Of a stretch of DNA of 64,000 nt, positions 10,579-59,566 are shown in pieces. Location: assembly GCA_944320785.1 (NCBI GenBank), contig CALUIR010000009.1:1-64000 (forward strand), in the 5' to 3' direction. The notes beneath the pieces were generated by a model. It was given only the letters and a program-made list of their open reading frames with translations. It ran no database searches and was not told where the DNA came from. The position numbers were made by a program, and so were the translations under genes. The first letter of the stretch is position 1. Each line of letters begins with the position of its first letter. Source of the stretch: an uncultured Bacteroidaceae bacterium (GTDB taxonomy: Bacteria; Bacteroidota; Bacteroidia; Bacteroidales; Bacteroidaceae).

Positions 10579-10776
10579 CGTACAGCTTGTACGATAAGCA
10601 TCATACAGTTTGTACGGACGGCATCGTACGGTTCGTACGATAAGCATCGTACGGTTCGTACGATAAGCATCGTACAGTTTGTACGGACGGCATCGTACTG
10701 TTTGTACGATAAGCACCGTACAGTATGTACGATAAGCATCGTACTGTTTGTACGGACAGCACCGTACAGACAGCAC
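10579..10776. repeat. Array A: 23-bp tandem palindromic repeat, about 8.6 units
   Basis: Eight 23-bp units plus a 14-bp partial lie between convergent ispF and tyrA. Each unit is CGTAC-NNNNN-GTACG followed by ATAAGCAT or a GACGGCAT-type spacer. In the other register it reads GTACGAT-AAGC-ATCGTAC, so inverted half-sites alternate about every 11-12 bp. The two spacer types are interspersed irregularly. A partial GTAAGCAT precedes unit 1 at 10571. The 23-bp period is not a multiple of 3, so it is not coding. The rest of the 352-bp spacer is GC-rich without a recognisable gene. Confidence 0.9.
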
Positions 10777-10780
10777 GGGG

Positions 10781-11554
10781 CTACTTGATGTTGGCGCGGA
10801 TGCGGGCCAGGTAGCGCTTCATGCCCTCGGCGTCGCGGGCGGTGATGATGTCGAGCAGGCGCTTCAGTTCGGTGCGGATGCCCTCCACCTGTGCCGGGGT
10901 GCGGGGGTTGAAGAGGATTTCCTGCAGGAGGTAGTCGTCCTCCGAGAGGAGCCCTTGGGCGATGGCCATGTGGCGCTTGAAGGTGGTGCCGGGCGCGTCT
11001 TGGTGCTTCATGACGGCGGCGAACACGAAGGTGGACACGAAGGGGATGGACAGGGAGTAGGCCACGGTGTCGTCATGCTCCTCGAAGGTGTATTCGAAGA
11101 TGCGCAGGCGGAGCGACTGGTAGAGGTCCTTGAAGAATACCTTCCCGAGGTGGTCGCCCTCGCTGATGATGATGGCGTTCTCCTGGCTGAGGTTGCTGAG
11201 GCTGGCGAAGGTGGGCCCGAACATGGGGTGGGTGGAGACGTAGCGGAAGCCGCTGTCTTCGTAGAACCTTTTCAGCCCCGTCTTCACGGAGGCGATGTCG
11301 CTGAGGATGCATCCCCGGGGCAGCACGGGGATGACGTTGCGGAACGCCTCCAGGGTGTATTTCACGGTGGCGGCGTTGATGACGAGTTCCGGCTCGAAGT
11401 CCCTGATTTCCTCCAGCGTGGTGAAGCGGCAGGTGTTGTACACGAAGCGCAGCTGGTGGGGGTTGGTGTCATAGACGGCCGTCTCGTGCTGGAAGCTGAG
11501 CAAGTCGGTGAAGAAGGAGCCCATCTTCCCGGCCCCCAATGTCAGTATTCTCAT
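10781..11554 (-). CDS. tyrA: Prephenate dehydrogenase (tyrosine biosynthesis)
   Basis: This 257-residue enzyme oxidatively decarboxylates prephenate to 4-hydroxyphenylpyruvate. The N terminus is an NAD-binding Rossmann motif (MRILTLGAGKMGSFFTDLL). Family segments include DIASVKTGLKRFYEDSG, STHPMFGPTF (conserved His-Pro-Met-Phe-Gly) and a helical C-terminal dimerisation region (YSLSIPFVSTFVFAAV). The frame is open 52 codons upstream, but the ATG at 11554 places GAGKMG at the N terminus as expected. It is last in the minus-strand aromatic operon, 28 bp after the DAHP synthase gene. Confidence 0.92.
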   Translation of the reverse strand: MRILTLGAGKMGSFFTDLLSFQHETAVYDTNPHQLRFVYNTCRFTTLEEIRDFEPELVINAATVKYTLEAFRNVIPVLPRGCILSDIASVKTGLKRFYEDSGFRYVSTHPMFGPTFASLSNLSQENAIIISEGDHLGKVFFKDLYQSLRLRIFEYTFEEHDDTVAYSLSIPFVSTFVFAAVMKHQDAPGTTFKRHMAIAQGLLSEDDYLLQEILFNPRTPAQVEGIRTELKRLLDIITARDAEGMKRYLARIRANIK

Positions 11555-11582
11555 GTCGGCGGTGTTTAGGGGTTGGCTTTCT

Positions 11583-12644
11583 TCACTGGTTGATGATTTC
11601 CATTTGCTGGCGCACGCTTTCCTCATGCACGGCCTCGAACACTTTCTTGACGAACCCGGCGTCCATGCCGCAGGCGGCTCCCTGCGCGCCCCGCTTTTCC
11701 AGTATCTCATTGTACCGCCCGGCCTGCAGCACGGTCATGTCGTGTTCCTTCTTGAAGGTGCCTATCTCGCGGCACACCCGCATGCGCTTGGCCAGCACCT
11801 CGATGAGCGTGTTGTCGCACTCGTCAATCTGGTGTCGCAGTTCGTTGAGGTTCTCGGTGGTCTGCGTCTCCTTGCGGATGACCAGCAGGTTGAGGATATA
11901 GTCGAGGATGTCGGGGGTGACCTGCTGGGCGGCGTCGCTCCAGGCCGCGTCGGGATTGCAGTGGCTCTCTATGATGAGGCCGTCGAAGTTCAGGTCCATG
12001 GCCTGCTGGCAGAGGGAGGCGATGAGTTCCCGCTTCCCGCCGATGTGGCTGGGGTCGCAGAAGATGGGCAGCTCGGGGATGCGACGGCGCAGTTCGATGG
12101 GGATGTGCCACTGCGGCAGGTTGCGGTATATCTTCTTGTCGTAGGAACTGAAGCCCCGGTGTATGGCGGCCAGGCGGCGCAGCCCGGCGTTGTTGATGCG
12201 CTCCAGCGCGCCGATCCACAGTTCGAGGTCGGGGTTCACGGGGTTCTTCACCAGCACGGGGATGTCCACGCCCTTCAGCGCGTCGGCAATCTCCTGCACG
12301 GCGAAGGGGTTGGCCGAGGTCCTTGCCCCGATCCAGAGGAGGTCGATGCCCTGCTTCAGGGCTTCATAGACGTGCTTGGCCGTCGCCACTTCGGTGGCCA
12401 CGTACATGCCCGTCTCGCGCTTCACTTCCTTGAGCCACGCCAGCCCTTCCACGCCGACGCCCTCGAAGCCTCCGGGCTTGGTGCGGGGTTTCCAGATGCC
12501 GGCCCGGAATATCCGGATGCCTTTGGAGGCCAGTTGGCGGGCGGTCTCCATCACTTGTTTTTCTGTCTCTGCACTGCATGGGCCTGCAATGACGATAGGC
12601 CTTTTAGGCTCGATGCCGGGGAGCAAGATGGGTTCTAATTCCAT
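11583..12644 (-). CDS. Bifunctional DAHP synthase / chorismate mutase
   Basis: The N-terminal 255 residues are a class I 3-deoxy-7-phosphoheptulonate synthase (PIVIAGPCSAETEKQV, GIWKPRTKPGGFEGVG, WIGARTSANPFAVQEIADAL, KNPVNPDLELWIGALERI, DPSHIGGKRE). The last 95 residues are an AroQ-type chorismate mutase (ELRHQIDECDNTLIEVLAKRM, GTFKKEHDM). The enzyme thus covers the first step of the shikimate pathway and the branch to prephenate. ATG at 12644 gives 353 residues, usual for this fusion in Bacteroidota. The mutase domain may let prephenate control the synthase, as described for similar fusions. Confidence 0.94.
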   Translation of the reverse strand: MELEPILLPGIEPKRPIVIAGPCSAETEKQVMETARQLASKGIRIFRAGIWKPRTKPGGFEGVGVEGLAWLKEVKRETGMYVATEVATAKHVYEALKQGIDLLWIGARTSANPFAVQEIADALKGVDIPVLVKNPVNPDLELWIGALERINNAGLRRLAAIHRGFSSYDKKIYRNLPQWHIPIELRRRIPELPIFCDPSHIGGKRELIASLCQQAMDLNFDGLIIESHCNPDAAWSDAAQQVTPDILDYILNLLVIRKETQTTENLNELRHQIDECDNTLIEVLAKRMRVCREIGTFKKEHDMTVLQAGRYNEILEKRGAQGAACGMDAGFVKKVFEAVHEESVRQQMEIINQ

Positions 12645-12658
12645 GGTCGTATGCTTTT

Positions 12659-13843
12659 TTAGGGTTGTTGTTGCATTTGTTGGATGCGTCCCAGCGCCTC
12701 CCGCAAGCGTTCCTCCTTGCAGCAAAGCGAGATGCGGACGTGGCGTGCGCCGTTCGTGCCGAAGATGAACCCGGGAGTGATGAACACGCGGGCCTCGTGC
12801 AGCACCTTTTCCGTGAGCGCTTCGGCGTCGGCATAGCCGTCGGGTATCCGTCCCCATAGGAACATGCCCACTTGCCGGCTGTCGAAAGTGCATCCAAGGG
12901 CTTGCATGATGCTTTCCGCCCATTGCCTCCGTTGGCGGTACAGGCGGATGTTCATCTCCTGGTGCCACTCGGGAGGATTCTGGAGCGCCTGCGCGGCAGC
13001 CAGTTGGATGCATCGGAAGGTGCCGGAATCGATGTTGCTCTTCACCTTCAGCACCCATTCGACGAACTGCGGGTTGGAGGCGAGCATGGCCACGCGCCAT
13101 CCGGGCATGTTGTGGCTCTTGCTCATGGAGTTGAACTCGATGCAGCATTCCTTTGCCCCTTCCACGGCCAGCAGGCTGATGGGCTTGTCGTTGAGGATGA
13201 AGCTGTACGGGTTGTCGTTGACCACGACGATGCCGTGCTTTCGCGCGAAGGCGGCTAGCCGGCGGTACATCTCCATCGTGGCGTTGGCGCCGGTGGGCAT
13301 GTTGGGGTAGTTGGTCCACATCAGCTTCACGCGGCTCAAGTCCATGCGTTCCAGTCCATCGAAGTCGGGCATCCACCCGTCCTCCTCCTTCAGGTCGTAG
13401 TTCACCACCTTTGCGCCGAGCAGCTTGCTCAGCGAGGTGTAGGTGGGGTATCCGGGGTTGGGCACGAGGACTTCCTCTCCGGGGTTCACAAAGGCCAAGG
13501 TGACGTGCAGGATTCCTTCCTTCGAGCCGATGAGGGGTTGTATTTCCTTTTCGGGGTCGAGGCTCACGCCGTACCATTTCTTGTACCATTGCGCAAAGGC
13601 GTTCCGTAGTTCGGGAATGCCGATGGTGGGCTGGTAGCCATGCACGTCGGGGCGCACGGCGTTTTCGCAGAGCGTGCGTATGGTTTCTTCCGAGGGTGGC
13701 ATGTCGGGGCTGCCTATGCCCAGGCTGATGACATCCAGCCCTTCGGCGTTCATTCGTGCTATCTCTTTCAGCTTGCGTGAGAAATAGTATTCGCTCACTT
13801 CCTCCAGCCTGTTGGCCGGGCGTATGCGGTCTGTTGTTCCCAT
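12659..13843 (-). CDS. Class I/II PLP-dependent aminotransferase (aromatic operon)
   Basis: This 394-residue fold-type I aminotransferase probably carries out the final transamination to phenylalanine and tyrosine, or supplies an aspartate aminotransferase. Features are SLGIGSPDMPPSEETI, LIGSKEGILHVTLAFVNPGEEVLVPNPGYPTY split by the cofactor pocket, NYPNMPTGA, DNPYSF, and the PLP-lysine motif SMSKSHNMPGWR (Lys242, Arg250). It resembles LL-diaminopimelate/aspartate aminotransferases, so a role in lysine synthesis is an alternative. Its place between pheA and the DAHP synthase gene favours aromatic amino acids. Confidence 0.88.
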   Translation of the reverse strand: MGTTDRIRPANRLEEVSEYYFSRKLKEIARMNAEGLDVISLGIGSPDMPPSEETIRTLCENAVRPDVHGYQPTIGIPELRNAFAQWYKKWYGVSLDPEKEIQPLIGSKEGILHVTLAFVNPGEEVLVPNPGYPTYTSLSKLLGAKVVNYDLKEEDGWMPDFDGLERMDLSRVKLMWTNYPNMPTGANATMEMYRRLAAFARKHGIVVVNDNPYSFILNDKPISLLAVEGAKECCIEFNSMSKSHNMPGWRVAMLASNPQFVEWVLKVKSNIDSGTFRCIQLAAAQALQNPPEWHQEMNIRLYRQRRQWAESIMQALGCTFDSRQVGMFLWGRIPDGYADAEALTEKVLHEARVFITPGFIFGTNGARHVRISLCCKEERLREALGRIQQMQQQP

Positions 13844-13854
13844 ATTCTTGTGTG

Positions 13855-14700
13855 TTAGCAGTTGGTTTTGAATGAAGCGTATTCTCCCAGTATTTTCAGT
13901 TCCTTGGTGAGCGGTGAAATGGCGTCCAATGCCTGCCGGTAGCGAAGGTAGTCGTTGAACGTCAGGTCCACGTAGAAAAGGTATTCCCATTCCCTCCCGA
14001 TGATGGGGAGTGACTGTATTTTGGTGAGGTTCATTTTGTAGAAGGAGAGGATGGAGAGTACCTGCGAAAGGCTTCCTTCTGTGTGAGGCAGGGAGAATAC
14101 GATGCTGGCCTTATCAATGGGCGCCTCTTTGTGCCTCATTTCATCAGCCTTCCATGCGTCGGCCACGACCAAGAAGCGGGTGAAGTTGTGCTTGTTGGTT
14201 TCGATGCCTTCCTGCAGCACTTTCATTCCGTAGAGTTGTGCAGCGGCTTTCGAGCAGATGGCTGCATGCCCATGCAGGCGGTTCTTCCGGATGGTTTCGG
14301 CGCTCATGGCGGTGTCTTCCGTTTCCACGACTTTCAGCGTGGGGTGGCTGTCTAAAAAATCCCGGCATTGCATCAAGGCGATGGGATGGGAATTCACTTC
14401 GGTCAGGTTTTCCCAGCCTTCATCCGGCAGGCAGGCGAGGCAGTGCGAGATGCGTAGCTTGTATTCGCCGATGATGCGGGTGTTGCTGTCGCGCAGCAAT
14501 TCATGGTTTTGCAGGAGGCTTCCTGCAATGGTGTTTTCTATGGCCAGCATGCCGAGCGAAAGGTTGTTTTCCTTGATGTGTTTGAACACGTCGGCAAAAG
14601 TGGAGCAACATTCCAGCGTGATGTTTTCTTGGCCGAAGTAATTGTGGGCTGCAATGTCGTGGTATGACCCCAATGTCCCTTGTATGGCTACTTTTTTCAT
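13855..14700 (-). CDS. pheA: Prephenate dehydratase
   Basis: The 281-residue enzyme converts prephenate to phenylpyruvate. The catalytic domain runs about residues 1-180 (VAIQGTLGSYHDIAA, GMLAIENTIAGSL, SHPIALMQCRDFL and the conserved HNFTRFLVV). It is followed by a C-terminal ACT domain (ASIVFSLPHTEGSLSQVL, KIQSLPI) that gives phenylalanine feedback inhibition in the family. ATG at 14700 is the first start after the terminator hairpin at 14718-14745. It is the first structural gene of the operon, controlled by the leader-peptide attenuator just upstream. Confidence 0.95.
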   Translation of the reverse strand: MKKVAIQGTLGSYHDIAAHNYFGQENITLECCSTFADVFKHIKENNLSLGMLAIENTIAGSLLQNHELLRDSNTRIIGEYKLRISHCLACLPDEGWENLTEVNSHPIALMQCRDFLDSHPTLKVVETEDTAMSAETIRKNRLHGHAAICSKAAAQLYGMKVLQEGIETNKHNFTRFLVVADAWKADEMRHKEAPIDKASIVFSLPHTEGSLSQVLSILSFYKMNLTKIQSLPIIGREWEYLFYVDLTFNDYLRYRQALDAISPLTKELKILGEYASFKTNC

Positions 14701-14717
14701 GTGTATCTTTTTAGAAT

Positions 14718-14745
14718 AAAAAATCCCGCCTCGTGGAAGCGGGAT
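14718..14745 (-). terminator. Attenuator terminator of the pheA operon
   Basis: On the minus strand ATCCCGC (14745-14739) pairs with GCGGGAT (14729-14723) around a 9-nt loop and is followed by a T-run (TTTTTT, 14723-14718). The 5' arm belongs to TCCCGCTTCC (14744-14735), which can instead pair perfectly over 10 bp with GGAAGCGGGA (14802-14793) at the end of the leader peptide. The two structures are mutually exclusive. Confidence 0.88.
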
Positions 14746-14779
14746 TCTGTTGTTATTTCTTTTAATTGTTGCTATCGGT

Positions 14780-14860
14780 TTATACAACAAGTTCCCGCTT
14801 CCTCTTACTGCTAAAGTAAAAGAAATAAAAGAAGGAAAATGTATAGTTAAACGATTTCAT
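14780..14860 (-). CDS. Phe/Tyr-rich leader peptide of the pheA operon
   Basis: A 26-codon frame starts ATG at 14860, preceded by AAAGGACTGA, and ends TAA at 14780. It begins MKSFNYTFSFFYFFYF: seven Phe and three Tyr within residues 4-16, then a basic stretch and ELVV. Codons 20-23 (AGG AAG CGG GAA) contain the antiterminator strand, so a ribosome reaching the stop would mask it and let the terminator form, while stalling at Phe/Tyr codons would free it. This is the classical leader-peptide attenuation layout. The frame is too short for standard gene callers. Confidence 0.88.
   Translation of the reverse strand: MKSFNYTFSFFYFFYFSSKRKRELVV
14793..14802 (-). promoter_or_regulatory. Antiterminator strand of the pheA attenuator
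   Basis: The mRNA segment GGAAGCGGGA lies inside the leader-peptide frame and is a perfect 10-bp complement of TCCCGCTTCC at 14744-14735. When free, this longer helix should outcompete the 7-bp terminator stem. Confidence 0.82.
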
Positions 14861-14885
14861 TCAGTCCTTTTGTTTATTGATGCGG

Positions 14886-14914
14886 CAAAAATAATGAATT
14901 TATTTTAAACGCAA
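14886..14914 (-). promoter_or_regulatory. Promoter of the pheA operon
   Basis: On the minus strand TTG (14914-14912) and TATTTTTG (14893-14886) are 18 bp apart. Transcription would start near 14880, about 20 nt before the leader-peptide ATG, so the whole attenuator is inside the transcript. Confidence 0.75.
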
Positions 14915-14989
14915 GCATTTGTTCCTTTTTTTTTGATTTTAGTAGGCAATGATGCGGGGATTGCTGCTTCAAAAGCTTTTTCGATGGCC

Positions 14990-15946
14990 TTATAGCGGCA
15001 CGTTGGCATATAAGTCTTTGAAGTTGTTGAATTCCCCGCTGATGCGGTTTTCTTCTTCGGGGTTCAGTTCCATGGATTTCTTCATATCTTCGATGGAACC
15101 TTGCTTGTCGCCTTTCTGGAGCTTGGCGCGTCCGCGTTCCCGATAAGCGTCTGCGGATTGGGGCAGTGTTTCGATGGCTTCGTCGTAGCAGGCGATGGCT
15201 TCGTCTAATTTCCCTTCTTTGGCGAGCAACGTGCCGAGGTGGAGGTACGCCTGTTCACTGAACGGGTTGGCTTCAATGATGCGGGTGTAGGCATCCTGCG
15301 CTCCTTTGCTGTCTCCCTGTCTTTCTTTCAGTTGTCCTTGCAGGAACAAGGCGTTTTCATCTTCCGGATTGGCAGCCAAGATAGCTTCCACGTCTTCCTT
15401 CGCTTCCTCGTTTTGCTGCATGGCCATCAGGATTTTTGCTCTCAGCAGGCGGGCATCGGTGTAATCGTCCTTCTTTTGTATGGCTGTGGTGAGGTGGGCG
15501 ATAGCATTGAACTCGTCCTGCAACCCATGTTCAGCTTTGGCCATGAGCAGGTATGCGGCAGGATTTTCGGTTGCTTGCTCTTGGGCTTTTGTGGCGGCGT
15601 TTTTCATGTTGGTGTAATCTTCCAGCATGAAATAGACGTTTGCCAGCAAGATGTGTATGTTGCTTTCTTCCGGCCATAGGCTGGTCATTTCTTCTAATAT
15701 GGTGCGTGCTTCCTCCAGTTCATGGGTTTGGATGAGGGTGTTGGCCAAGTAGTCCATGGTCTCCATGTCTTTGCGGATGGCAAGGGCTTCGTGGAAGCAT
15801 CGTATGGCATAGTCAGCCCTGCCCATGCGCAAGGCGCGTATGCCGTCGTATTTGAATATCTCGAAATTCTTTTGGCCTTTTCTTTCTTTTTCGTCTTGCG
15901 GGCTTTCGGCCTTTCCTCCGAAGAACGATTTCAGGAAATTTGCCAT
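14990..15946 (-). CDS. Tetratricopeptide repeat protein (cytoplasmic)
   Basis: This 318-residue protein has no signal peptide and is almost entirely TPR helices: about seven repeats between residues 35 and 300, for example GIRALRMGRADYAIRCFHEA, TDARLLRAKILMAMQQNEEA, AYLHLGTLLAKEGKLDEAIA and DAYRERGRAKLQKGDKQGSI. TPRs are protein-binding scaffolds; the partner is unknown. ATG at 15946 (MANFLKSFFGGKAE) is preferred over a start 29 codons upstream because the -7 element at 15981-15988 lies just upstream. It is monocistronic, between the aromatic operon and recQ. Confidence 0.8.
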   Translation of the reverse strand: MANFLKSFFGGKAESPQDEKERKGQKNFEIFKYDGIRALRMGRADYAIRCFHEALAIRKDMETMDYLANTLIQTHELEEARTILEEMTSLWPEESNIHILLANVYFMLEDYTNMKNAATKAQEQATENPAAYLLMAKAEHGLQDEFNAIAHLTTAIQKKDDYTDARLLRAKILMAMQQNEEAKEDVEAILAANPEDENALFLQGQLKERQGDSKGAQDAYTRIIEANPFSEQAYLHLGTLLAKEGKLDEAIACYDEAIETLPQSADAYRERGRAKLQKGDKQGSIEDMKKSMELNPEEENRISGEFNNFKDLYANVPL

Positions 15947-25506: not shown

Positions 25507-26772
25507 TTATTCTACTCTCCATTTTGCAAACCAGCGTTCGTTGAATGTGAGGCCGATGCTCAGCCGCAGGTAATTTTCTTCCAACAGGGTGCCTTGGTTT
25601 TCAGGTTTCACTTTAATGTATTGCGCTGCCACGTTTAGTATCGATTTGTTCTGGAAAATGGGCAGCCCGAATCCGGCGGATACGCCGAATTCGTTGGCGC
25701 TGTTCCCGTCAGCCATCTTGGCGTAGGAGTTGGCGAAATAGGCTCCTGCCCGGTATTTGATGCGGCTGAAATAGTTCCGCTTGAAGGGATTGGGGAGGTA
25801 TTCCACGCCTACGGCGTATTTGGAGCGGTCGTTCAATTGGTGGGTTCTGCTGAAATACCGTGCGTCTTCCCACTTCTGGAGGCTGTAGTCGAACCCTACG
25901 GTCAGTTGGTTGTTGTGGCAGTATCCGGCGCCTATGCCGAAGCTGTGCGGAAGGTCGAACTGGTATCCTGCTTCGTTCACGATGCCTTGGATGGCGGTGT
26001 AGGATTCATTGTTCAGCTTGTGTTTCAATGAATAGACGGCGCCAAGGGTCAGGTGGTCCTTCGTGCCGATGTCTTGCGTGTATTGGAGGCCGAAGTCGAT
26101 TTTGTAGTCCTTTACCTTCACGTAGTTCTCTTTGTAGGAAATGTCGAACGATGCGTCGGAGAAACTCACCTGCGTGGCTTGCGTGATGGAGCCGAACAGG
26201 TAGGAGGCGTTGAAGCCGACGGAAAGGTTGTCGATGATTTTCACGCCCATGCCTAAGAATATTTGTGTCAGTCCGCCGTTGCCTGCATAGGTGTGGTAGG
26301 CGCTGAGGCTGGTATGGCCGGGGCTTTGCATGGTGCTTTCCGTGCTGATGTTGTATCCCACGCTGCTGAACGGCAGGATGCCGATGGTCATTCCCAGCCC
26401 TTTGTGGAGGCGGAACTGCATGGCGATGTAATCAAAGCTGGTGTTCTTTGCATTGATTTTGGCATTGCCGTCACTCAAATTGGTGTTCTGGAAAGAAAGT
26501 CCTCCGTCAAAGAGGAAAGTCAGTGAATCGATGGCGGTGTAGGAGGCTGGATTGGCTGTATTGATTTGTGAGCCGTTGCGCAACCCGTATGCGATTCCTC
26601 CCATGGCTGTGTTGTCGCCCATGGTTTGCCCGGACAATAGCCCCCATCCGTATCGCGTGTAAGGCGAATTGGTATTGGGCGAAGAACCGCTTTCCCCGCT
26701 GCTCTGCGCCAAGACGTGGGTGGCAAGGCATGCCATTGAGAATGCGCAAAGTATCTTTTTATATAAAGTCAT
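25507..26772 (-). CDS. Outer membrane beta-barrel protein (FadL/OMPP1-like)
   Basis: The 421-residue protein has a signal peptide ending at VLAQSS, then an N-terminal plug-like segment (NSPYTRYGWGLLSGQTMGDNTAMGG and PASYTAIDSLTFLFDGG as separate parts) and about fourteen alternating strands, closing with YLRLSIGLTFNERWFAKWRVE shortened at the end. The NPAS motif and barrel pattern resemble FadL-type transporters. It is the first gene of the operon running to the PpiD-like gene. An imperfect -7 element (CATCTTTG, minus strand, around 26823-26830) lies upstream. Substrate unknown. Confidence 0.75.
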   Translation of the reverse strand: MTLYKKILCAFSMACLATHVLAQSSGESGSSPNTNSPYTRYGWGLLSGQTMGDNTAMGGIAYGLRNGSQINTANPASYTAIDSLTFLFDGGLSFQNTNLSDGNAKINAKNTSFDYIAMQFRLHKGLGMTIGILPFSSVGYNISTESTMQSPGHTSLSAYHTYAGNGGLTQIFLGMGVKIIDNLSVGFNASYLFGSITQATQVSFSDASFDISYKENYVKVKDYKIDFGLQYTQDIGTKDHLTLGAVYSLKHKLNNESYTAIQGIVNEAGYQFDLPHSFGIGAGYCHNNQLTVGFDYSLQKWEDARYFSRTHQLNDRSKYAVGVEYLPNPFKRNYFSRIKYRAGAYFANSYAKMADGNSANEFGVSAGFGLPIFQNKSILNVAAQYIKVKPENQGTLLEENYLRLSIGLTFNERWFAKWRVE

Positions 26773-27140
26773 CGTAACTAGCTATTCTGTTTTGTTCTTT
26801 CTTCCCGGAAAGAAATTGTTTGCAAAGATGCTACTTTTTATGCTTGTATCAAAAGAAATTCCCTTGCGTGCCGTTAAAAAAACAAAACGGCGTGCCGTCG
26901 TCGCCTGTTTTTGCGCTTCCCCTCCTCTTTTTCCTTTGTTCAGGGCGTTGGTTGTTGCGGCGGTGTTTCATCTTTTCTCTGGCCGCCGGGCTTCTTTGCC
27001 AGCCTTTTCCCCGTGCCTGTTTTTTGCGCAGGCCGGATGCCGTGGGCGTGGCGCGGGATTTTCATGGGTGTTTTGTTGGGACATTGGAAAGTTTTTGGGG
27101 AGTCTTCCGCATGTTTGCCTGAGATCATCAGGAACAATTT

Positions 27141-27211
27141 CCAAGACGATTACTAATCGTATCCGCTTACGATTACTAATCGTATGGCCTGACGATTACT
27201 AATCGTCTTGG
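27141..27211. repeat. Array B: 23-bp tandem palindromic repeat, three units
   Basis: Three identical 15-bp palindromes ACGATTA-C-TAATCGT start at 27146, 27169 and 27192, separated by 8-bp spacers ATCCGCTT and ATGGCCTG. The set is bracketed by CCAAG (27141) and CTTGG (27207), which extend the outer palindrome arms. In the alternative register TAATCGTA and TACGATTA pair across the first spacer. Same architecture as arrays A and C-E, unrelated sequence. Confidence 0.92.
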
Positions 27212-27327
27212 AAAAAGCCTGTGGCGGGCAAGCGGATATTCCAAGCGGGAATCTGCCGCCGGCCTTCTCTTTCCGTTTAAAAAATGGAATATTTGGCGGG
27301 AGTTTCCTGTATATGGGGATATTTGTT

Positions 27328-27335
27328 TACCTTTG
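27328..27335 (+). promoter_or_regulatory. -7 element upstream of lnb
   Basis: TACCTTTG matches the TAnnTTTG consensus and lies 36 bp before the ATG. No clear TTG is placed 18-20 bp upstream. Confidence 0.5.
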
Positions 27336-27370
27336 CCGCCTGTAAAATAGGAATGTGAGGCTTCTTTGCC

Positions 27371-28567
27371 ATGCTTATGCGGAAATACAAAATATTGCTG
27401 GGGCTTTGCGCTTGCCTGTGGGCCGTGCAAGGCTTTCCTTTGAGGGCAGCTTCGGCCGATTCGTTGCGTTTCAGCCTGCTGACCTGTTCCCCTGGGGCAG
27501 AAATCTATGCTTTGTTCGGCCACACCGCCTTGCGCTATGAGAACCTTCGCACGGGGACGGACGTGGTGTTCAACTATGGCATGTTCAGTTTCAATGCGCC
27601 GCATTTCATCTGGCGCTTTGTCAAGGGAGACACGCATTACATGTTAGGTGTCAATTCGTTTGATGACTTCCAGGCTGAGTACATGGAGCGCGGGTCCGTG
27701 GTTTACGGGCAGGAGCTTCTGCTGTCGCCTTCTGAGAAAAGAAAGCTGGCGGGATTCCTGTCGTGGAACAGCCGCCCGGAGAACCGCACGTACTTGTATA
27801 ACTTCTTTTACGACAATTGCACGACCCGTGCGCGTGACTGCATCGAGGGCAATGTGCAGGGGACGGTGTCTTATCGGGAAGCGGGAAAGACCCTGTCGTT
27901 CCGTGATATTGTGCATGAACATACCGTGGACCATGAATGGGCATGCTTTGGGATAGACTTTTGCTTGGGCAGCCCGGCAGACGAACCGATACCGCCACGT
28001 TTGCAGATGTTTGCGCCGTTCCACCTGATGCATGCGGTGGATTCGGCCTACGTGACGGATGCCTCCACGGGGGAGGAGCGGCATCTGGCGCGCCCGTCTG
28101 CGCCGGTGGTACGCCCGCTTGTGCGGACGGACCATGCAGAACATTATTGGCTGACCCCTTTGCAGGCGGCATGGATGCTGTTTTTCATCGTAGCTTTGAT
28201 CAGTGTGCATGGTTTCTTGCGCGATAAATGTTACGCCGGGCTGGATGCCTTGTTGTTTGGCGCGGCGGGCTTGGCGGGATGCGTCATCGCTTTCTTGGCG
28301 TTTTTCTCCATCCATCCGGCGGTGTCGCCCAATTACCTGTTGTGTGTGTTCCATCCTCTCCACCTGTTGTTCCTGCCTGTGCTGCTATGCCGTCCGGCGA
28401 GAAGGATGCGGGATGGCTATCATGGGGCGAACTTCCTTGTTTTAACACTTTTTATTGTGCTTTTCGGCTGTTTCCCGCAAGAATTTAACTTGGCGGTGTT
28501 ACCTTTGGCCGCAAGTTTGTGGTTCCGTTCCGCAAGCCACGTGGCGTTGATGTATAAAGAAAGATAA
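27371..28567 (+). CDS. lnb: Lipoprotein N-acyltransferase Lnb (DUF4105)
   Basis: The 398-residue protein has a signal peptide (ILLGLCACLWAVQGFPLRAA), an N-terminal periplasmic DUF4105 domain (about 30-240) and about five C-terminal membrane helices. In the periplasmic domain, CSPGAEIYALFGHTALRY and FFYDNCTTRARDCIEG carry the conserved His and Cys typical of a thiol acyltransferase/protease fold. DUF4105 was recently identified as the Bacteroides lipoprotein N-acyltransferase Lnb, which adds the third acyl chain. A second ATG six bases downstream (27377) is also possible. The next gene starts immediately after its stop. Confidence 0.82.
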   Translation: MLMRKYKILLGLCACLWAVQGFPLRAASADSLRFSLLTCSPGAEIYALFGHTALRYENLRTGTDVVFNYGMFSFNAPHFIWRFVKGDTHYMLGVNSFDDFQAEYMERGSVVYGQELLLSPSEKRKLAGFLSWNSRPENRTYLYNFFYDNCTTRARDCIEGNVQGTVSYREAGKTLSFRDIVHEHTVDHEWACFGIDFCLGSPADEPIPPRLQMFAPFHLMHAVDSAYVTDASTGEERHLARPSAPVVRPLVRTDHAEHYWLTPLQAAWMLFFIVALISVHGFLRDKCYAGLDALLFGAAGLAGCVIAFLAFFSIHPAVSPNYLLCVFHPLHLLFLPVLLCRPARRMRDGYHGANFLVLTLFIVLFGCFPQEFNLAVLPLAASLWFRSASHVALMYKER

Positions 28568-34327: not shown

Positions 34328-34415
34328 CCTGCCCGCATGGAAACTTCCGCCTGCTGCGGGGGATGCTTCGGCTTGCCCGTGTGGAAAGTCCCGTCCAGGC
34401 GGGTGGAAAGTTCAT
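34328..34415. repeat. Array C': degenerate 22-bp tandem repeat, about four units
   Basis: Four successive 22-bp blocks start near 34328, 34350, 34372 and 34394. Blocks 1 and 3 share TGCCCG-rTGGAAA, block 4 shares GGAAAGT, and block 2 is diverged. GC-rich half-sites (GCCCG, CGGGC, GCGGG) alternate in orientation. It abuts array C. The reading is less certain than for the other arrays. Confidence 0.5.
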
Positions 34416-34497
34416 CCTCAGCCTAAGGATGTGCATCTTTAGGTTAAGGATGTGTATCTCTAGCCTAAGGATACGCATCTTCAGGCTAAGGATACAG
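34414..34497. repeat. Array C: 21-bp tandem palindromic repeat, four units
   Basis: Four 21-bp units start at 34414, 34435, 34456 and 34477. Each is a 17-bp imperfect palindrome ATC(C/T)T..AAGGAT plus a 4-nt spacer (GTGC, GTGT, ACGC, ACAG). Across the spacer CTAAGGAT-GTGC-ATCTTTAG also pairs, so half-sites alternate about every 10.5 bp. It lies in a 429-bp spacer between divergent genes; the only other element seen there is a -7 box at 34605. Confidence 0.85.
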
Positions 34498-34604
34498 AAG
34501 TTGGCCGCATGGACCGGGTTTGTTTCCCGCATGGCTGGAAGAATGCGGCGGGGCGGTTTGTATTTTTTTCAAAGCGAAATGGGCAGGCTTAACTGGAAAT
34601 ATGC

Positions 34605-34612
34605 TACTTTTG
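34605..34612 (+). promoter_or_regulatory. -7 element upstream of the DUF4199 gene
   Basis: TACTTTTG is an exact consensus match 26 bp before the ATG at 34638. No TTG at the right distance upstream. Confidence 0.55.
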
Positions 34613-34637
34613 CACGCGATAGACATTGGCAGGCGAT

Positions 34638-35186
34638 ATGAATGCGACGCAAAATCTGATGTACCGTTGCGCCATGCAGTACGGCACGTGCATGGGCGTG
34701 TTCTGGATAGGGAAGTTCATTTTGTTCCCGTTGGGCTTCAGGATGCCTTTCCTTTCATTGGCTTTCATGGTGCTGACCTTGGCGGTGCCTTTTCTGGCCT
34801 ATTACTACGCCCGCACCTACCGGGACCGTTTCAGCGGGGGTGCCATCCGCTTTTCGCAGGCGTGGGTGTTCACGGCCTTGGTGTATGTCTATGCCGCGTT
34901 GCTGGCGGCGGTGGCCCATTTCGTGTATTTCCAGTTCATCGACCAAGGGTTCGTCCTGAATGCTTGCATGGAGATGCTGGAACAGCAGAAGGGCTTCAGC
35001 GCGGAGATGGACGCGCAGGTGGCCCTGTTGCAGGAGGCGTTGGGCGAGGTGGACTTGTCGCCCATTGGCATCACCATGCAGTTGTTCTCCTCCAACGTGA
35101 TGTACGGCAGCATCTTGGCGGTGCCGGTCGCCCTCCTGGTGATGCGGAAGGCGGGGAAGGAGCCTGCCCCGCAGAGTAATGAATGA
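34638..35186 (+). CDS. DUF4199 integral membrane protein
   Basis: The 182-residue protein has four hydrophobic segments (about 12-35 GVFWIGKFILFPLGF, 40-57 LAFMVLTLAVPFLAYYY, 75-100 AWVFTALVYVYAALLAAVAH, 150-172 GSILAVPVALLVM) and no signal peptide, matching DUF4199 membrane proteins of Bacteroidota. Function is unknown. The start is ATG 34638; an in-frame TTG four codons earlier is less likely. It is followed by a glycosyltransferase gene 20 bp away, a very common neighbour pair in the order, suggesting a shared envelope role. Confidence 0.82.
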   Translation: MNATQNLMYRCAMQYGTCMGVFWIGKFILFPLGFRMPFLSLAFMVLTLAVPFLAYYYARTYRDRFSGGAIRFSQAWVFTALVYVYAALLAAVAHFVYFQFIDQGFVLNACMEMLEQQKGFSAEMDAQVALLQEALGEVDLSPIGITMQLFSSNVMYGSILAVPVALLVMRKAGKEPAPQSNE

Positions 35187-44934: not shown

Positions 44935-44989
44935 GAGGATGGCTTATGTTTGGGTAAAACTTGGGAATTTCTCTATGGCAGATGGTTTG

Positions 44990-45110
44990 TTTTGGCGGGC
45001 CAAAATCTCAATTTGACGGGCCAAAATCCCAATTTGACGTGTCAAAATCGGAATTTGACGTGTCGAAATCGGAATTTGGCGTGTCAAACCGGCAATCTGC
45101 ACGGCAGGAT
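44990..45110. repeat. Array D: 21-bp tandem palindromic repeat, about six units
   Basis: Six 21-bp units start at 44990, 45011, 45032, 45053, 45074 and 45095. Unit 1 core is the perfect palindrome TTTTGGC-GG-GCCAAAA; unit 3 is TTTGAC-GT-GTCAAA. Both arms have changed together (GGC/GCC to GAC/GTC), and unit 2 is the intermediate (GAC/GCC). Spacers are TCTCA, TCCCA or TCGGA. Across the spacer GTCAAA and TTTGAC also pair. The period is a multiple of 3, so it produces spurious heptad frames on both strands. Confidence 0.92.
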
Positions 45111-45139
45111 GCATTGGCTTGCTTGCAAGTTCTACAAAT

Positions 45140-54982: not shown

Positions 54983-55043
54983 GGATTGCCTTTTTTCCCT
55001 TTGCTTTGTATGGTTTTTCCAGGGGGTGTTCCTGAAATTGCCG

Positions 55044-55051: not shown

Positions 55052-55240
55052 GTCAATCGTTTTGGATTGTCCTGTCTTTTGCAGGTGTTTTTTGCGTGGA
55101 GGGGACTTCTATCCGTGCGGGTGTTTTGCCGTTTTCATGCGGGATGTTGGGGCGAACTTTCCTTGCGGGCGGGGAGCGGGGTTGTGGTAATTTGTTTTAA
55201 ACTTGCCTCCGGGTTCGTGCCGGCAATGGCATTTTTGGGC

Positions 55241-55248
55241 TATCTTTG
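55241..55248 (+). promoter_or_regulatory. -7 element upstream of the DUF5715 gene
   Basis: TATCTTTG is an exact consensus match 30 bp before the ATG at 55278; the -33 region is weak. The spacer between this and phoH holds nothing else recognisable. Confidence 0.5.
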
Positions 55249-55277
55249 CCGGGTGAATCGGAAAATCTTTCAGGACA

Positions 55278-55958
55278 ATGGTTAGAAAATGGGTCTATGC
55301 GGGGGTGCTGGCCTTGGCAGTGGCAGCCTGCTGTTCGTGCGGCGGCCGGGGGACGGCAGAGGCCGCGCCGGCGGGCGTAGCGGAACCCCGCGCGGTGTAC
55401 AATAAGATTTTAGGCGTGCGCAATTTCCAGCGGACGTTCAACGACAGGAACGACGTGCATCTCTCGGCGGCGGTGGCGAAGGGCATCACGCCGTTGGGGG
55501 ACCGCGAGGAGGCCGCATCGGCGGCGGAACGCCTTTTGCGGATTGCCCCGAACGGTTATTATGCGATGGATTCGCTGGCGCACTCCATCCCTTATTTGGT
55601 GCCGTCGGCAAGCGTGCTGCTCACCAAGATAGGCGGCAATTTCCAAGACTCTTTGGCAGCCAAGGGCTTGCCGGAACACCGCATCATCGTGACTTCCGTG
55701 CTGCGCACCAAGCGCGACGCGCAAAGGCTGAGCCGCCGCAATGTGAACGCCACGCTGAACTCGGCCCATTTCTACGGCACGACGTTCGACGTGAGCTACC
55801 GCCGCTTTGAGCCGGCGGACACGGCGGCAGCCGCTGCCGACCCGTGGAAGCTGAAGATGGTGCTGGCGGAGGTGTTGCGCGACCTGCGGAAGAAGGAGTG
55901 GTGCTACATCAAGTATGAAGTGAAACAAGGGTGTTTCCACATCACCACCCGCTTGTAG
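55278..55958 (+). CDS. DUF5715-family lipoprotein
   Basis: The 226-residue protein has a lipoprotein-like signal ([20 protein letters not shown]) with cysteines at the end of the hydrophobic core. The mature part includes [40 protein letters not shown] and [20 protein letters not shown]. The HxxGxxxDVSY arrangement resembles D,D-carboxypeptidase (VanY/peptidase M15) folds, so a peptidoglycan-binding or zinc peptidase role is possible; DUF5715 is the nearest named family. It is followed 14 bp downstream by truA. Confidence 0.72.
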
Positions 55959-55972
55959 GAGGGGCAGGGCGC

Positions 55973-56725
55973 ATGCAACGGTATTTCATGGAACTTTCTT
56001 ATGACGGGCGGGGCTACCATGGCTGGCAGGTGCAGCCTAACGGCGCGAGCGTGCAGGGATGCGTGGCCGGGGCGTTGTCGCTGCTGCTTCGGGCGGAGAC
56101 CGAGGTGGTGGGCGCGGGGCGGACGGACGCAGGGGTGCATGCCGCCCGCATGGTGGCGCATTTCGACAGCGGCGAGGCATTCGACCCCGCTTGGCTGGCC
56201 GCGAAGCTGAACCGCCTCTTGCCGCCGGACATCGCCGTGCAGGGCATCCGGCGGGTGCGGGAGGGGGCGCACGCCCGCTTCGATGCCCTGTCGCGCACGT
56301 ACCAGTACCATGTGGCGACGGCGAAGCAGCCTTTCCTCCGCGACCGGGCATGGCGCGTGGCGCCCGGCCTTGACTTCGGGCGGATGAACGAGGCGGCGGC
56401 GCTGCTGCGGGAATATGCGGACTTCACCAGCTTCAGCAAGCTGCACACGGACGTGAAGACGAACAATTGCCGCGTGACGCAGGCGGAATGGGCGCAGGAA
56501 GGGGAGGCGGAGTGGGTGTTCACGATACGCGCCGACCGCTTCCTGCGCAACATGGTGCGGGCCGTCGTGGGGACGTTGGCCGACGTGGGACGGGGCCGCT
56601 TGGACGCGGACGGCTTCCGGGCCGTCATCGAGGCGAAGGACCGCTGCCGGGCAGGCAGTTCGGCGCCGGCCCACGGGCTGTTCCTGGTGGATGTGGAATA
56701 CCCGGCGGACATTTATATAGGATAG
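55973..56725 (+). CDS. truA: tRNA pseudouridine(38-40) synthase TruA
   Basis: TruA makes pseudouridine at positions 38-40 of the anticodon arm. The 250-residue protein begins [20 protein letters not shown] and contains the catalytic Asp in [35 protein letters not shown], and [20 protein letters not shown]. The frame is open 14 codons further upstream; the ATG at 55973 fits the family N terminus. The gene is extremely GC-rich (45 of 60 bases at 56041-56100) although it is a conserved housekeeping gene. Confidence 0.95.
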
Positions 56726-56736
56726 GAGAGGGAGAC

Positions 56737-57636
56737 ATGTGGTTGCTTCTGGCTTTTCTTTCGGCGGCCTTGCTGGGGTTCTACGACGTGTTCAAGAAGG
56801 AGTCGCTCCGGGACAACGCCGTGATTCCCGTGCTGTTCCTCAACACGTTGTTCTCCACCCTTTTGTTCCTGCCCTTCATCGTGGTGTCGGCGCGGGTGCC
56901 GGGCGTGCTGGAGGGGACGCTGTTTTACGTGCCGCAGGCCGGGTGGGACGTCCACCGCTTCATCGTGCTGAAGTCGGCCTTGGTGCTGTCCTCGTGGGTG
57001 TTCGGCTACTTCGGGATGAAGCATCTGCCGCTGACCATCGTGGGCCCCATCAATGCGACGAGGCCGGTGATGGTGCTGGTCGGCGCGATGGCGGTATTCG
57101 GCGAGCGGCTCAACCTGTGGCAGTGGGCGGGCGTGGCGCTGGCCGTGGCTTCGTTCTTCCTGCTAAGCCGTTCGGGGCGGAAGGAGGGCATCGACTTCGC
57201 GCACAACCGTTGGGTGGTGTTCGTGGTGCTGGCGGCGTTGCTGGGGGCGGCGAGCGGGTTGTACGACAAGTACCTGATGGGGCGCTTCGACCGCATGGCG
57301 GTGCAGGCATGGTACAATGTTTACCAGCTGCCGATGATGGGGGCGGCGCTGCTGGCCTTGTGGCTGCCGTCGCGGCGGCGGACGACGCCGTTCCGCTGGG
57401 ACTGGTGCATCCTGCTGATATCGCTCTTCCTCAGCGCGGCGGACTTCGTGTACTTTTACGCCCTTTCCTTGGAGGGGTCGATGATTTCCATCGTGTCGAT
57501 GGTGCGGCGGGGCAGCGTGGTGGTGTCGTTCCTGTGCGGGGCGTTGCTGTTCCGTGAAAAGAATTTAAAAAGCAAGGCCGTGGACCTTCTGCTGGTGTTA
57601 ATAGGGATGATATGCTTATATTTGGGGTCAAAATGA
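56737..57636 (+). CDS. EamA/DMT-family transporter
   Basis: The 299-residue protein has ten membrane helices in two five-helix repeats, as in drug/metabolite transporters: LLLAFLSAALLGFYDVFKKE, IPVLFLNTLFSTLLFLPFIV, GPINATRPVMVLVGAMAVFG in the first half, VVFVVLAALLGAASGLYDKY, WCILLISLFLSAADFVYFYA and VVSFLCGALLFREKNLKSKA in the second. The substrate is unknown. The ATG 12 bp after truA is chosen; the frame is open further upstream within truA. Its TGA overlaps the next ATG (ATGA). Confidence 0.88.
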   Translation: MWLLLAFLSAALLGFYDVFKKESLRDNAVIPVLFLNTLFSTLLFLPFIVVSARVPGVLEGTLFYVPQAGWDVHRFIVLKSALVLSSWVFGYFGMKHLPLTIVGPINATRPVMVLVGAMAVFGERLNLWQWAGVALAVASFFLLSRSGRKEGIDFAHNRWVVFVVLAALLGAASGLYDKYLMGRFDRMAVQAWYNVYQLPMMGAALLALWLPSRRRTTPFRWDWCILLISLFLSAADFVYFYALSLEGSMISIVSMVRRGSVVVSFLCGALLFREKNLKSKAVDLLLVLIGMICLYLGSK

Positions 57637-58283
57637 AAGAGCGTATGAAAAGGTTTTTGCTGGCCATGCTTTGCGTGGCCGTTTTTGCCGGGGGGCGGGC
57701 GCAGACGATGGGGGAGCTGTTCGTGGCGATGCCCGACTCGTTGCTGCCGGCCTTCACGAAGAATGACCGGGCGGACTTCGTGGATTTCCTCGCGGCCGGC
57801 ATGCGGGCCCGGGTGAAGGACAAGTTCGGCCGGGTGGCGGAGATGCGGGCGTTGGCCGCCGACTACCTGCTGCTGGAGACATCTTCGGCCTCCACGCTGG
57901 AGATGAAGCTGCTGCAGGCGGACGACAGCACGCGCGTCATCGCGGCGGCCACCACGTGGCGCGGCCCGGCGGAGGACAGCCGCCTGGACTTCTACACGAC
58001 GGCGTGGGAGCCGCTGCCCGCCGACAGTTTCATCGCCCTGCCCGTGCTGGACGACTTCCTGCTGCGGGGCGACTCCATCGACACGGCGCGGCGCGACGCC
58101 GCCTTGCTGCGGGCGGACATCTTCCTGCTGCGGGCTTCGCTGCCGGCGGACGCGGCGGCGGTGGATTTCACGTATGCCACGCCGGATTACATGGACGAGG
58201 AGTCGGCGCGGGCCTTGCGCCCCTTCCTGGCCGGGAAGCCGGTGCGCTACGAATGGATTGACGGACGTTTCATCAAACAATGA
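57633..58283 (+). CDS. DUF3256-family exported protein
   Basis: The 216-residue protein has a signal peptide (MKRFLLAMLCVAVFAGGRAQ) and conserved segments LFVAMPDSLLPAFTKNDRAD, FVDFLAAGMRARVKDKFGRV and VDFTYATPDYMDEESARALR. It matches DUF3256, a Bacteroidales-specific exported family of unknown function. The ATG at 57633 overlaps the transporter stop (ATGA); an upstream ATG at 57612 and a downstream one at 57645 are alternatives. The next gene starts 7 bp after its stop. Confidence 0.8.
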   Translation: MKERMKRFLLAMLCVAVFAGGRAQTMGELFVAMPDSLLPAFTKNDRADFVDFLAAGMRARVKDKFGRVAEMRALAADYLLLETSSASTLEMKLLQADDSTRVIAAATTWRGPAEDSRLDFYTTAWEPLPADSFIALPVLDDFLLRGDSIDTARRDAALLRADIFLLRASLPADAAAVDFTYATPDYMDEESARALRPFLAGKPVRYEWIDGRFIKQ

Positions 58284-58290
58284 CAGAGAT

Positions 58291-59322
58291 ATGAGGAGAA
58301 GTTTCGAAAGAATGTGGGCAACCCTCCTGTGCGCGGCGGCCATCTGCATGGCGGCCACGGCGCAGGCCCAGGCGCCCGCCGGCTATTACGACGGGACGGA
58401 GGGGAAAAGCGGCGCGGCGCTGAAGACGGCGCTCTCCCGCATCATCAGCGACCACGAGCAGCGGTCGTACAAGCAGCTGTGGACGGATTTCCTGCAGACA
58501 GACCGGCGGAGCGACGGCAGCGTGTGGGACATGTACTCCTCCACCACCGTCTTCGCCTTCCAGGACGACCAGTGCGGCAACTACCACGAGGAGGGCGATT
58601 GCTACAACCGCGAGCATTCCATGCCGAAAAGCTGGTTCAACGACGCGTACCCGATGTACACGGACCTGTTCCACCTCTACCCGACGGACGGCTATGTGAA
58701 CAACCGCCGGGGCAATTACCCCTTCGGCGAGACGCGGGGCGAGCGCTACCAGTCGGAGGAGGGATACAGCAAGCTGGGCAACTGCACCTATCCGGGCTAC
58801 TCAGGCATCGTGTTCGAGCCGGCCGACGAGTACAAGGGCGATTTTGCCCGCACGTATTTCTACATGGTGACGTGCTACGAGAACCGTGTGTCCTCGTGGG
58901 ACAGCGACATGCTCAACGGCACGGCCTATCCCGCCTTCACCGCGTGGGCCGAGGAGATGCTCCTCGAATGGAGCCGCGAGGACCCCGTGAGCCAGAAGGA
59001 GGTGGACCGCAACGAGGCCGTTTACCGCATCCAGGGCAACCGCAACCCCTTCATCGACCTTCGCGGGCTGGAGGAGTACGTGTGGGGCAACCGCAAGGAT
59101 GAGCCGTTCGGGCCCACCGGGGTGGACCGGCTGGCCGGCTGCGCGTTCAGCGTGCGGGCCGAGGGCGGGCAGCTCGTCATCCAGTCCGGCGCGGAGGCTG
59201 TCGTCCCCGTGTACGACGTGGTGGGCCGCCTGGTGCGGCGCGTGCATGTCGCAGCGGGCGAGACGCGCGTGTCCCTGCCCCCCGGCATCTACCTCGTGGC
59301 GCGGCACAAGGTGGCCCTCTGA
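58291..59322 (+). CDS. Secreted endonuclease I with type IX sorting domain
   Basis: The 343-residue nuclease has a signal peptide cleaved near AQAQA and an endonuclease I domain about residues 30-250. YNREHSMPKSWFNDAYPMYT carries the REHSMPKSW metal/catalytic motif, followed by DLFHLYPTDGYVNNRRGN. The last 65 residues look like a type IX C-terminal sorting domain (type A): VVPVYDVVGRLVRRVHV and VSLPPGIYLVARHKVAL, with the GR and GIYLV signatures. Together with porU/porV it is probably cargo released or anchored at the cell surface. It likely digests extracellular DNA and RNA. A strong terminator follows. Confidence 0.88.
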   Translation: MRRSFERMWATLLCAAAICMAATAQAQAPAGYYDGTEGKSGAALKTALSRIISDHEQRSYKQLWTDFLQTDRRSDGSVWDMYSSTTVFAFQDDQCGNYHEEGDCYNREHSMPKSWFNDAYPMYTDLFHLYPTDGYVNNRRGNYPFGETRGERYQSEEGYSKLGNCTYPGYSGIVFEPADEYKGDFARTYFYMVTCYENRVSSWDSDMLNGTAYPAFTAWAEEMLLEWSREDPVSQKEVDRNEAVYRIQGNRNPFIDLRGLEEYVWGNRKDEPFGPTGVDRLAGCAFSVRAEGGQLVIQSGAEAVVPVYDVVGRLVRRVHVAAGETRVSLPPGIYLVARHKVAL

Positions 59323-59364
59323 GGCCGCCGGGCAGCCTGCCTGCCGTCACCAAGAGCCATAAGG

Positions 59365-59394
59365 AAGGCGGCGCAACCCCTTGCGCCGCCTTTT
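59365..59394 (+). terminator. Terminator of the endonuclease I operon
   Basis: A perfect 12-bp stem, AAGGCGGCGCAA at 59365-59376 with TTGCGCCGCCTT at 59381-59392, loop CCCC, continues into TTTT. It ends the plus-strand run from the DUF5715 gene and can act in both directions. Confidence 0.88.
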
Positions 59395-59444
59395 CCATGC
59401 CCCTGCGGGGGCGTTTTTCAGGAAATATTACTGCCACCCTGACG

Positions 59445-59566
59445 GGACCATAATCCCGTCGAAAATGGATACGCATCCCGTCGAAAATGGATACGCATCC
59501 ATTTTGAAAAAGATACGTATCCATTTTGAACGGGACACGCATCCGTTTTGCAGGGGATGCGCGTCC
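59445..59566. repeat. Array E: 22-bp tandem palindromic repeat, six units
   Basis: Cores of the form GGATACGCATCC recur every 22 bp, at 59445, 59467, 59489, 59511, 59533 and 59555. Outer arms come in two pairs, GACGGG/CCCGTC (first core) and AAATGG/CCATTT (third core). The second core is a hybrid with one arm of each type. It lies between the two convergent nuclease genes, in a 351-bp spacer that otherwise holds only the two terminators. Confidence 0.9.

Follow-up and report, generated by a model that had tools for sequence, protein, structure and literature searches.

The DNA analysed here (the window, 64,000 bp) comprised bases 1-64000 of contig C9 in the genome of an uncultured Bacteroidaceae bacterium (genome G000, a 2.57-Mb draft that is 84% complete), and contained five intergenic tandem arrays of palindromic units, named A to E (Table 1). 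Array ends were taken from Tandem Repeats Finder (TRF) with overlapping rows combined, and gene context from gene calls and Pfam. The five arrays, reported in an earlier note on this DNA, were real and had units of 21-23 bp. Their ends in that note lay within about 12 bp of the TRF ends, apart from the 3' end of array D (45110), which overshot by 22 bp.

Table 1. Arrays of the window and the gap that holds array B (window coordinates).
Feature	Coordinates	Strand	Description	Source
Array A	10568..10769	.	23-bp units, 8.8 copies, GTACGAT..ATCGTAC palindromes	TRF
Array B	27146..27206	.	three 15-bp palindromes ACGATTACTAATCGT with 8-bp spacers	
Gap holding array B	26737..27376	.	divergent; arms TTTCCAAG / CTTGGAAA adjoin the outer palindromes	
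Array C	34414..34495 (TRF 34413-34495)	.	21-bp units, family ATCYTTAGnCTAARGAT	
Array D	44991..45088	.	21-bp units, family TTTGACnnGTCAAA; co-directional gap 44935-45139	TRF
Array E	59453..59566	.	22-bp units, family GGATRCGCATCC-ATTTT; convergent gap 59323-59673	TRF

Neighbouring gene orientation varied, as the earlier note had stated: arrays A and E were in convergent gaps, array B in a divergent gap and array D in a co-directional gap. Array A lay between a YgbB gene (9949-10428, plus strand) and a PDH_N gene (10781-11554, minus strand). The gap of array C was divergent if the DUF4199 gene (Pfam) starts near 34626; in the orientation tally it was counted as co-directional because a weak, probably spurious minus-strand open reading frame was called at 34604-34768. 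The palindromes of array B occupied 27146-27160, 27169-27183 and 27192-27206, and TRF delimited this array at 27145-27206 (23 bp, 2.7 copies). In array A (10568-10767), sets of three 23-bp units also made up a higher-order repeat of 69 bp (TRF score 316), resembling satellite DNA. Two terminator-like GC-rich stem-loops, read by eye, flanked array E (59365-59640), so termination there may do without the array.

Sequence families, abundance and taxonomic range

Each of the five arrays belonged to a sequence family dispersed within its own genome. Family B (ACGATTANTAATCGT, with any centre base) had 119 exact sites in G000, 76 in its sister species G001 (both drafts, 84-85% complete) and none in ten other Bacteroidaceae; the reversed-pattern control had none in all 12. 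Family C (ATCCTTAGNCTAAGGAT, at most one mismatch) had 87 sites in G000, two in G001 and none in the other ten. Exact sites of family D numbered 12 in G000, six in G001, 14 in G009 and one in each of two other genomes, while its control pattern matched once in each of three genomes. A second family-A array was located at G000:C36:3390-3534, both family-A arrays being convergent, and a relative of array E at G000:C13:542-648. An extra word, AAACCTTnnAAGGTTT, made up the arms beside some B arrays. Clustering of 54 arrays in the G000 sample by shared 9-mers, a coarse procedure in which clusters chain, gave three large groups of 20, 18 and 9 arrays, each represented in convergent, divergent and co-directional gaps alike. 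B arrays were often inside longer, looser 21-22-bp arrays of CAAAACCTTGGAAGGTTTTGC or TTTTACnnGTAAAA words, forming compound arrays (G000 loci L214-L230; G001 loci L186-L198).

These relatives overturned the proposal of the earlier note that each array has its own sequence, and with it the contrast drawn to repetitive extragenic palindromic (REP) sequences and bacterial interspersed mosaic elements (BIMEs) on the ground that those share sequence across a genome. Between species the words did change. The earlier note would also have withdrawn its class if all arrays were copies of a described repeat family: they are copies of dispersed families, in the spirit of that proviso though not its letter, as no published description of these families or of the class was found in open-licence papers. 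Viral contigs contained no exact family-B pair, plasmids no match for B and phages no match for A, the arrays looked for in each; a viral or plasmid origin was rejected on these results.

Noncoding tandem arrays in G000 were nearly all of one length class. At a TRF score of at least 50 and periods of 10-60, the G000 sample (594,626 bp, 61.7 kb noncoding, including the window and loci picked for arrays) contained 47 arrays with 20-24-bp units and one of another period. The G001 sample (433,797 bp, also including picked loci) contained 29 arrays of 20-24 bp and five others. One dinucleotide shuffle of each noncoding sample yielded no arrays, so the arrays stood above chance in the comparison that the earlier note had offered as a possible refutation. 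In the unselected part of G000 (280 kb, made up of the initial 20 kb from each of 14 other contigs) there were 20 arrays of 20-24 bp, two of which fell within genes. The unit consensus in the G000 sample had a circular self-complementarity of 0.681, compared with 0.519 after letter shuffling (z 17.4). Identical 7-mer pairs in this genome numbered 226, 158 and 447 at lags of 21, 22 and 23, and about eight at each other lag.

Three more Bacteroidaceae had a 7-mer pair peak at lag 22 (191, 48 and 30 pairs). TRF found four, two and three 20-24-bp arrays in them, against six, two and two of other periods, and palindromicity (z 5.3, 0.5 and 0.6) was clear in the first only. No comparable lag peak was seen in small samples (120-150 kb each) of seven other Bacteroidales families, six genomes of other orders, seven of other classes and Escherichia coli K-12, where pairs per lag at 21-23 were 3.3, 4.3, 0.7 and 0.3, respectively, against 1.1-2.0 at other lags. 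The seven other Bacteroidales families contained one array in total, and none was seen in the noncoding DNA sampled from other orders, from other classes and from E. coli. Among 80 loci with organism names, 53 of the 93 arrays outside called genes had 20-24-bp units, spread over 32 loci. These 53 arrays were palindromic (z 9.2), whereas the 12 arrays with periods of 15-19 and 25-30 were not (z -1.4). Named loci judged by their titles to be from isolates carried 20-24-bp arrays in 10 of 34 cases, so the class is not merely an artefact of draft assembly. Bacteroides sp. ET71 (locus L039) has arrays of this class with a word of its own. By eye, some 21-bp and probably 14-bp Bacteroidaceae arrays were heptamer repeats, a separate class that can contaminate counts (L013 6148-6204, L030 3915-3955, L059 4076-4122, L061 789-830 and L066 5952-5991). 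Altogether, the class was abundant within the genome, present across Bacteroidaceae and largely confined to this family in the samples taken; as the earlier note had anticipated, it can be recognised by its geometry.

Half-sites, spacers and position relative to genes

Family B had a constant step and a variable spacer. Exactly three sites were present in 16 of the 22 sampled G000 B loci, and the step was 23 bp, with 8-bp spacers, in every multi-site B array examined. Core identity within and between arrays was 0.98 and 0.96 in G000, and 0.92 and 0.94 in G001. Spacer identity was 0.43 both within and between arrays in G000; in G001 it was 0.12 within and 0.51 between, because one spacer is usually ACACGTGT or close to it. 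The spacers are themselves under some constraint, keeping a pattern of A or C at the start and GC or CG mid-spacer. A near-perfect 38-bp palindrome was often formed in G001 by two B sites together with the spacer ACACGTGT; G000 spacers were mostly other sequences.

Of 23 G000 B loci looked up in G001, 11 had no coverage, eight had a B array where predicted and four lacked one there. In seven orthologous arrays (the match of an eighth pair fell on loci already assigned and was excluded), identity was 0.976 in the cores, which were ascertained by a search allowing two mismatches and compared without the centre base, and 0.526 in the spacers at best register. Fourfold-degenerate sites of the two genomes were 0.714 identical (35,514 sites, 238 genes). 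Constrained half-sites with variable spacers of fixed length are expected of an array of protein sites, and family B had both.

The same spacers bear on a mutational origin, in which slippage and palindrome correction would amplify 21-23-bp units that have no function. Exact differences of two units (42 bp) or one unit (23 bp) between related arrays and the 69-bp repeat in array A accord with it. Set against it, B spacers were not duplicated along with the cores, correction from arm to arm was not seen, palindromicity was absent at neighbouring periods, and arrays were largely restricted to one bacterial family. A pure by-product is accordingly improbable. Amplification of palindromes by replication, one of the origins suggested in the earlier note, is not supported as the sole cause, since B spacers were no more alike within arrays than between them; whole units are gained and lost.

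Were hairpins the object of selection, substitutions in either arm of a unit should be accompanied by compensating ones in its partner arm. This was not observed. At position 4 of 51 family-C sites in arrays with 21- or 42-bp steps, both halves were changed in 11 sites, the left only in 13, the right only in 12 and neither in 15 (p 1); every other position had p of at least 0.2, and a scrambled-palindrome control gave no sites. Across 37 arrays, arms paired at 6.29 of 8 positions within a unit and at 6.22 with the arm of another unit (p about 0.2), where full compensation was computed to yield a difference of about 1.2. The corresponding family-B table (up to four mismatches) consisted largely of chance matches (202 sites, against 191 in the control) and was uninformative. 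With no clear within-unit excess in the 37 arrays and none in the family-C arrays, local hairpin selection was rejected; the halves vary independently and hairpins are unlikely as the target of selection. Lack of compensation is expected of independent half-sites on double-stranded DNA.

Two further structural candidates were rejected. One long hairpin per array fitted the folds of arrays E and C and failed as a general principle: global symmetry in 66 arrays was lower (31.3) than in versions with permuted units (33.6; Wilcoxon p 0.007), and four of the 66 had p of at most 0.1. Intrinsic curvature was dismissed on A/T autocorrelation, which was weak and inconsistent at the half step.

The hairpin results also weigh on a REP/BIME-like origin, in which copies would be dispersed by a REP-associated tyrosine (RAYT, Y1) transposase and act as hairpins. 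The arrays resemble REP/BIME elements as palindromic, intergenic, many-copy repeats in all orientations, with the same sequence within a genome and species-specific sequences. They differ in their independent halves, without arm compensation, and in a step fixed at two helical turns. No Y1 transposase was found in the two drafts of this genus, G000 and G001, where the Y1_Tnp domain (PF01797) had no match; nor had it any in G003, G004, G006-G010 or G012. This origin is highly improbable.

Relative to genes, arrays were scarce near start codons: the fraction within 100 bp of a start was 0.12 in G000 against 0.29 for random placement, and 0.11 against 0.27 in G001. Comparison with random placement showed no enrichment at stop codons. 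Neither arm compensation nor a gene-end position, the marks of an intrinsic terminator or RNA hairpin, was found. The presence of arrays in all gap orientations, their scarcity near starts and the absence of stop enrichment do not fit a plain terminator or promoter role, in agreement with the earlier note. Operators of ordinary transcription factors, with several sites per promoter, would supply dimer-like sites at 21-23 bp, and some of the gaps are divergent. They are quite improbable all the same: convergent gaps carry arrays too, sites close to starts are rarer than random and the neighbouring genes are functionally mixed with no evident shared theme. Among the 31 of 42 B-flanking genes scanned, no common neighbour able to encode a binding protein was evident.

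Arrays between species and copies in other genera

Array positions were conserved above chance between G000 and G001, mostly with different sequence. Among 65 orthologous gaps that reached 100 bp or more in each genome, six had arrays in both genomes, four in G000 only, nine in G001 only and 46 in neither (Fisher p 0.007). In five of the six shared gaps the two arrays had no 8-mer in common, and in several the flanks aligned up to the arrays while the arrays themselves did not align. In one orthologous gap G000 had three units where G001 had a single one, the two differing by exactly 42 bp. Of 78 Bacteroidaceae loci, 16 carried a 21-22-bp array (15 of 22 bp; score limit 36) in the stretch lying 0.6-1.7 kb ahead of the PDH_N gene, with differing sequences and most near -1.1 kb; one of the 16 (L030) looks heptameric, and the stretch also yielded 12 arrays of 10-18 bp and four of 26-60 bp. 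Genes were called for three of the 16 loci, and there the array fell in the same co-directional gap. Two of five other genera had 20-24-bp arrays near SecA, so positions are not conserved family-wide.

In family B, every one of the 62 sites sampled in G000 had C or G as its centre base, and every one of the 34 in G001 had A or T (at most one mismatch). This suggests replacement of a word throughout a genome, as would occur in a lineage-specific address system of Bacteroidaceae chromosomes, with several oligomerising DNA-binding proteins, each with its own palindrome in arrays at two-turn spacing that occupy recurring gaps. Place and step would persist, the word would be replaced genome-wide between species, and word-plus-step specificities would move between genera. 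Such a system is doubtful.

The B palindrome pair at the 23-bp step (at most one mismatch) was present in seven of 399 Bacteroidaceae genomes from three genera: G000 (77 pairs), G001 (58), three genomes of genus g14 (28, 6 and 5) and two of genus g23 (9 and 1). The remaining listed members of g14 and g23 had no B pair at that step. The typical g14 element, seen at seven loci, had one to three B palindromes between a left arm ATATAACTGC and a right arm GCAGTTATAT, with about 9 bp separating each arm from the palindromes; some arms departed from this form, and likeness between the seven loci stopped at the arms, about 20 bp beyond the array. At four g23 loci, the same core and arms were part of a repeat, 179-203 bp long, whose inverted ends around GTCTGAAAA/TTTTCAGAC were imperfect (15-19 of 28 positions matching), and one copy was shorter by exactly one 23-bp unit. 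Direct repeats (CCCCATATTGT and AAAAAGAT, 11 and 8 bp) flanked two of the four copies, an exact 8-mer being common to 1.1% of random flank pairs; the other two had nothing beyond a 6-mer. An automatic search for inverted ends with target duplication found none in the seven g14 and four g23 loci; the g23 direct repeats emerged with corrected anchors. In the genus of the window, arms were only loosely alike, no terminal inverted repeats were seen, and two loci where G001 lacks B showed no clean empty site. The same word and step thus occur in different contexts, once inside what resembles a miniature inverted-repeat transposable element (MITE). A gene with a phage-integrase SAM-like domain (Phage_int_SAM_5; L305 1779-2624) adjoins one g23 element, and among 20 genes at or near B elements in g14 and g23 no shared candidate binding-protein gene was evident.

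The arrays in general could then be MITEs, i.e., non-autonomous mobile repeats with an internal minisatellite, like the BrickBuilt elements of Porphyromonas gingivalis. A transposase would act on terminal inverted repeats, the palindromes would be cargo or transposase sites, and any effect on neighbours, such as promoter activity, would be at most accidental. The g23 copies, with their common arms, inverted ends, unit-number difference and direct repeats, argue for this reading, as does the precedent of BrickBuilt, whose 23-nt intergenic tandem units are described as varying in number between strains (PMC4596501). The short reach of g14 likeness, the loose arms and the lack of a clean empty site in the window's genus argue against it, as do spacers that diverged where cores did not and orthologous gaps that hold arrays of different sequence. 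As a general explanation it is possible, though on the unlikely side.

Candidate explanation and related systems

The best-fitting reading, given roughly even credence, is that the arrays are dispersed sites for dimer-type proteins at two-turn spacing, spread in part as mobile elements. Sites for a DNA-binding protein were among the options of the earlier note. Each palindrome would be read as double-stranded DNA by a symmetric, presumably dimeric, sequence-specific protein, and the fixed step (21, 22 or 23 bp by family) would let adjacent dimers bind side by side and perhaps oligomerise. Their role would be independent of gene orientation (e.g., chromosome structure or insulation) rather than that of promoter operators or terminators. 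The copies are dispersed, vary by whole units and differ in sequence genome-wide between species, and in at least one genus a MITE-like repeat carried their spread.

Several points weigh against protein sites. The binding protein is postulated from patterns in the DNA. At a 23-bp step the sites are not on one helical face: the placement of half-sites on one face, proposed in the earlier note, suits the 21-bp arrays, and at 23 bp successive sites turn by about 68 degrees, taking 10.5 bp as one helical turn. The alternation of half-sites every 10.5-11.5 bp and their pairing in either register, also put forward there, add no evidence because periodicity and a palindrome entail both. Palindromicity was not above shuffles in the few arrays of G006 and G010 (three and two). 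The window itself supplies three of the six gaps with arrays in both species, and some of the G001 sample had been picked for its B sites. Copying or homogenisation could also give the core constraint, and in g23 a purely selfish element is possible, given the repeat of about 200 bp, its inverted ends and its direct repeats. RNA folding of the arrays is strong (z -4 to -10), though for palindromic repeats this follows by construction. Lastly, in a lax family-C set (68 sites, up to four mismatches), which holds many chance matches (scrambled control mean 26.6, maximum 59), positions 6 and 7 leaned to joint change (p 0.025 and 0.02); the most variable position had p 0.8, and the lean vanished in the in-array set.

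The closest described relatives of the arrays are BrickBuilt and then REP/BIME. As described, BrickBuilt carries tandem 23-nt units with no spacers between them, lies in intergenic DNA in all cases, differs in unit number from strain to strain and ends in inverted repeats; some segments have bidirectional promoter activity, and long stem-loops are predicted to form from the repeats (PMC4596501). The BrickBuilt consensus given there is palindromic at 16 of 23 positions, a level reached by 1.3% of shuffles. Shared features on that description are the order Bacteroidales, tandem intergenic 23-nt units (families A and B here; others 21 or 22 bp) and a palindromic consensus. BrickBuilt is, however, described as one sequence family of one species with a long leader and tail, whereas several families with steps of 21, 22 and 23 bp occur per genome here, and its inverted-repeat ends were not seen in copies from the window's genus. 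Its unit as given, AGAYCATARTATCCTCTCRTRTG, was unlike families A-F when compared by eye.

Two kinds of protein site offer further comparison. ArgR boxes and the met boxes of MetJ are cooperative arrays of dimer sites, with palindromes phased on the helix and variable site number; the arrays differ from them in occupying many intergenic loci in all orientations, mostly distant from start codons. The sites of SlmA, Noc and MatP are short palindromes dispersed round the chromosome independently of gene orientation, with one site sequence per system, whereas several families, with triples at a fixed step, are found here.

Intergenic repeats of Bacteroidaceae gut bacteria seem little described in the open-licence literature. 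The family-wide rule (palindromic, step of 21-23 bp, turnover of words) could serve as a simple detector, and BrickBuilt, reported from one species, would take its place in a possible wider class. The species could form a natural series for the study of many sites that change specificity together, and the ACGATTAnTAATCGT triple is a concrete bait for a candidate DNA-binding protein.

Within the window, no tRNA was detected and an Rfam scan at the gathering threshold found no known RNA family. The closest relatives of the PDH_N gene beside array A were from uncultured Bacteroides and named Bacteroidaceae. To the left of array A were type IX secretion genes: PorU, the sortase of the type IX secretion system (T9SS), followed by PorV (4872-9946).

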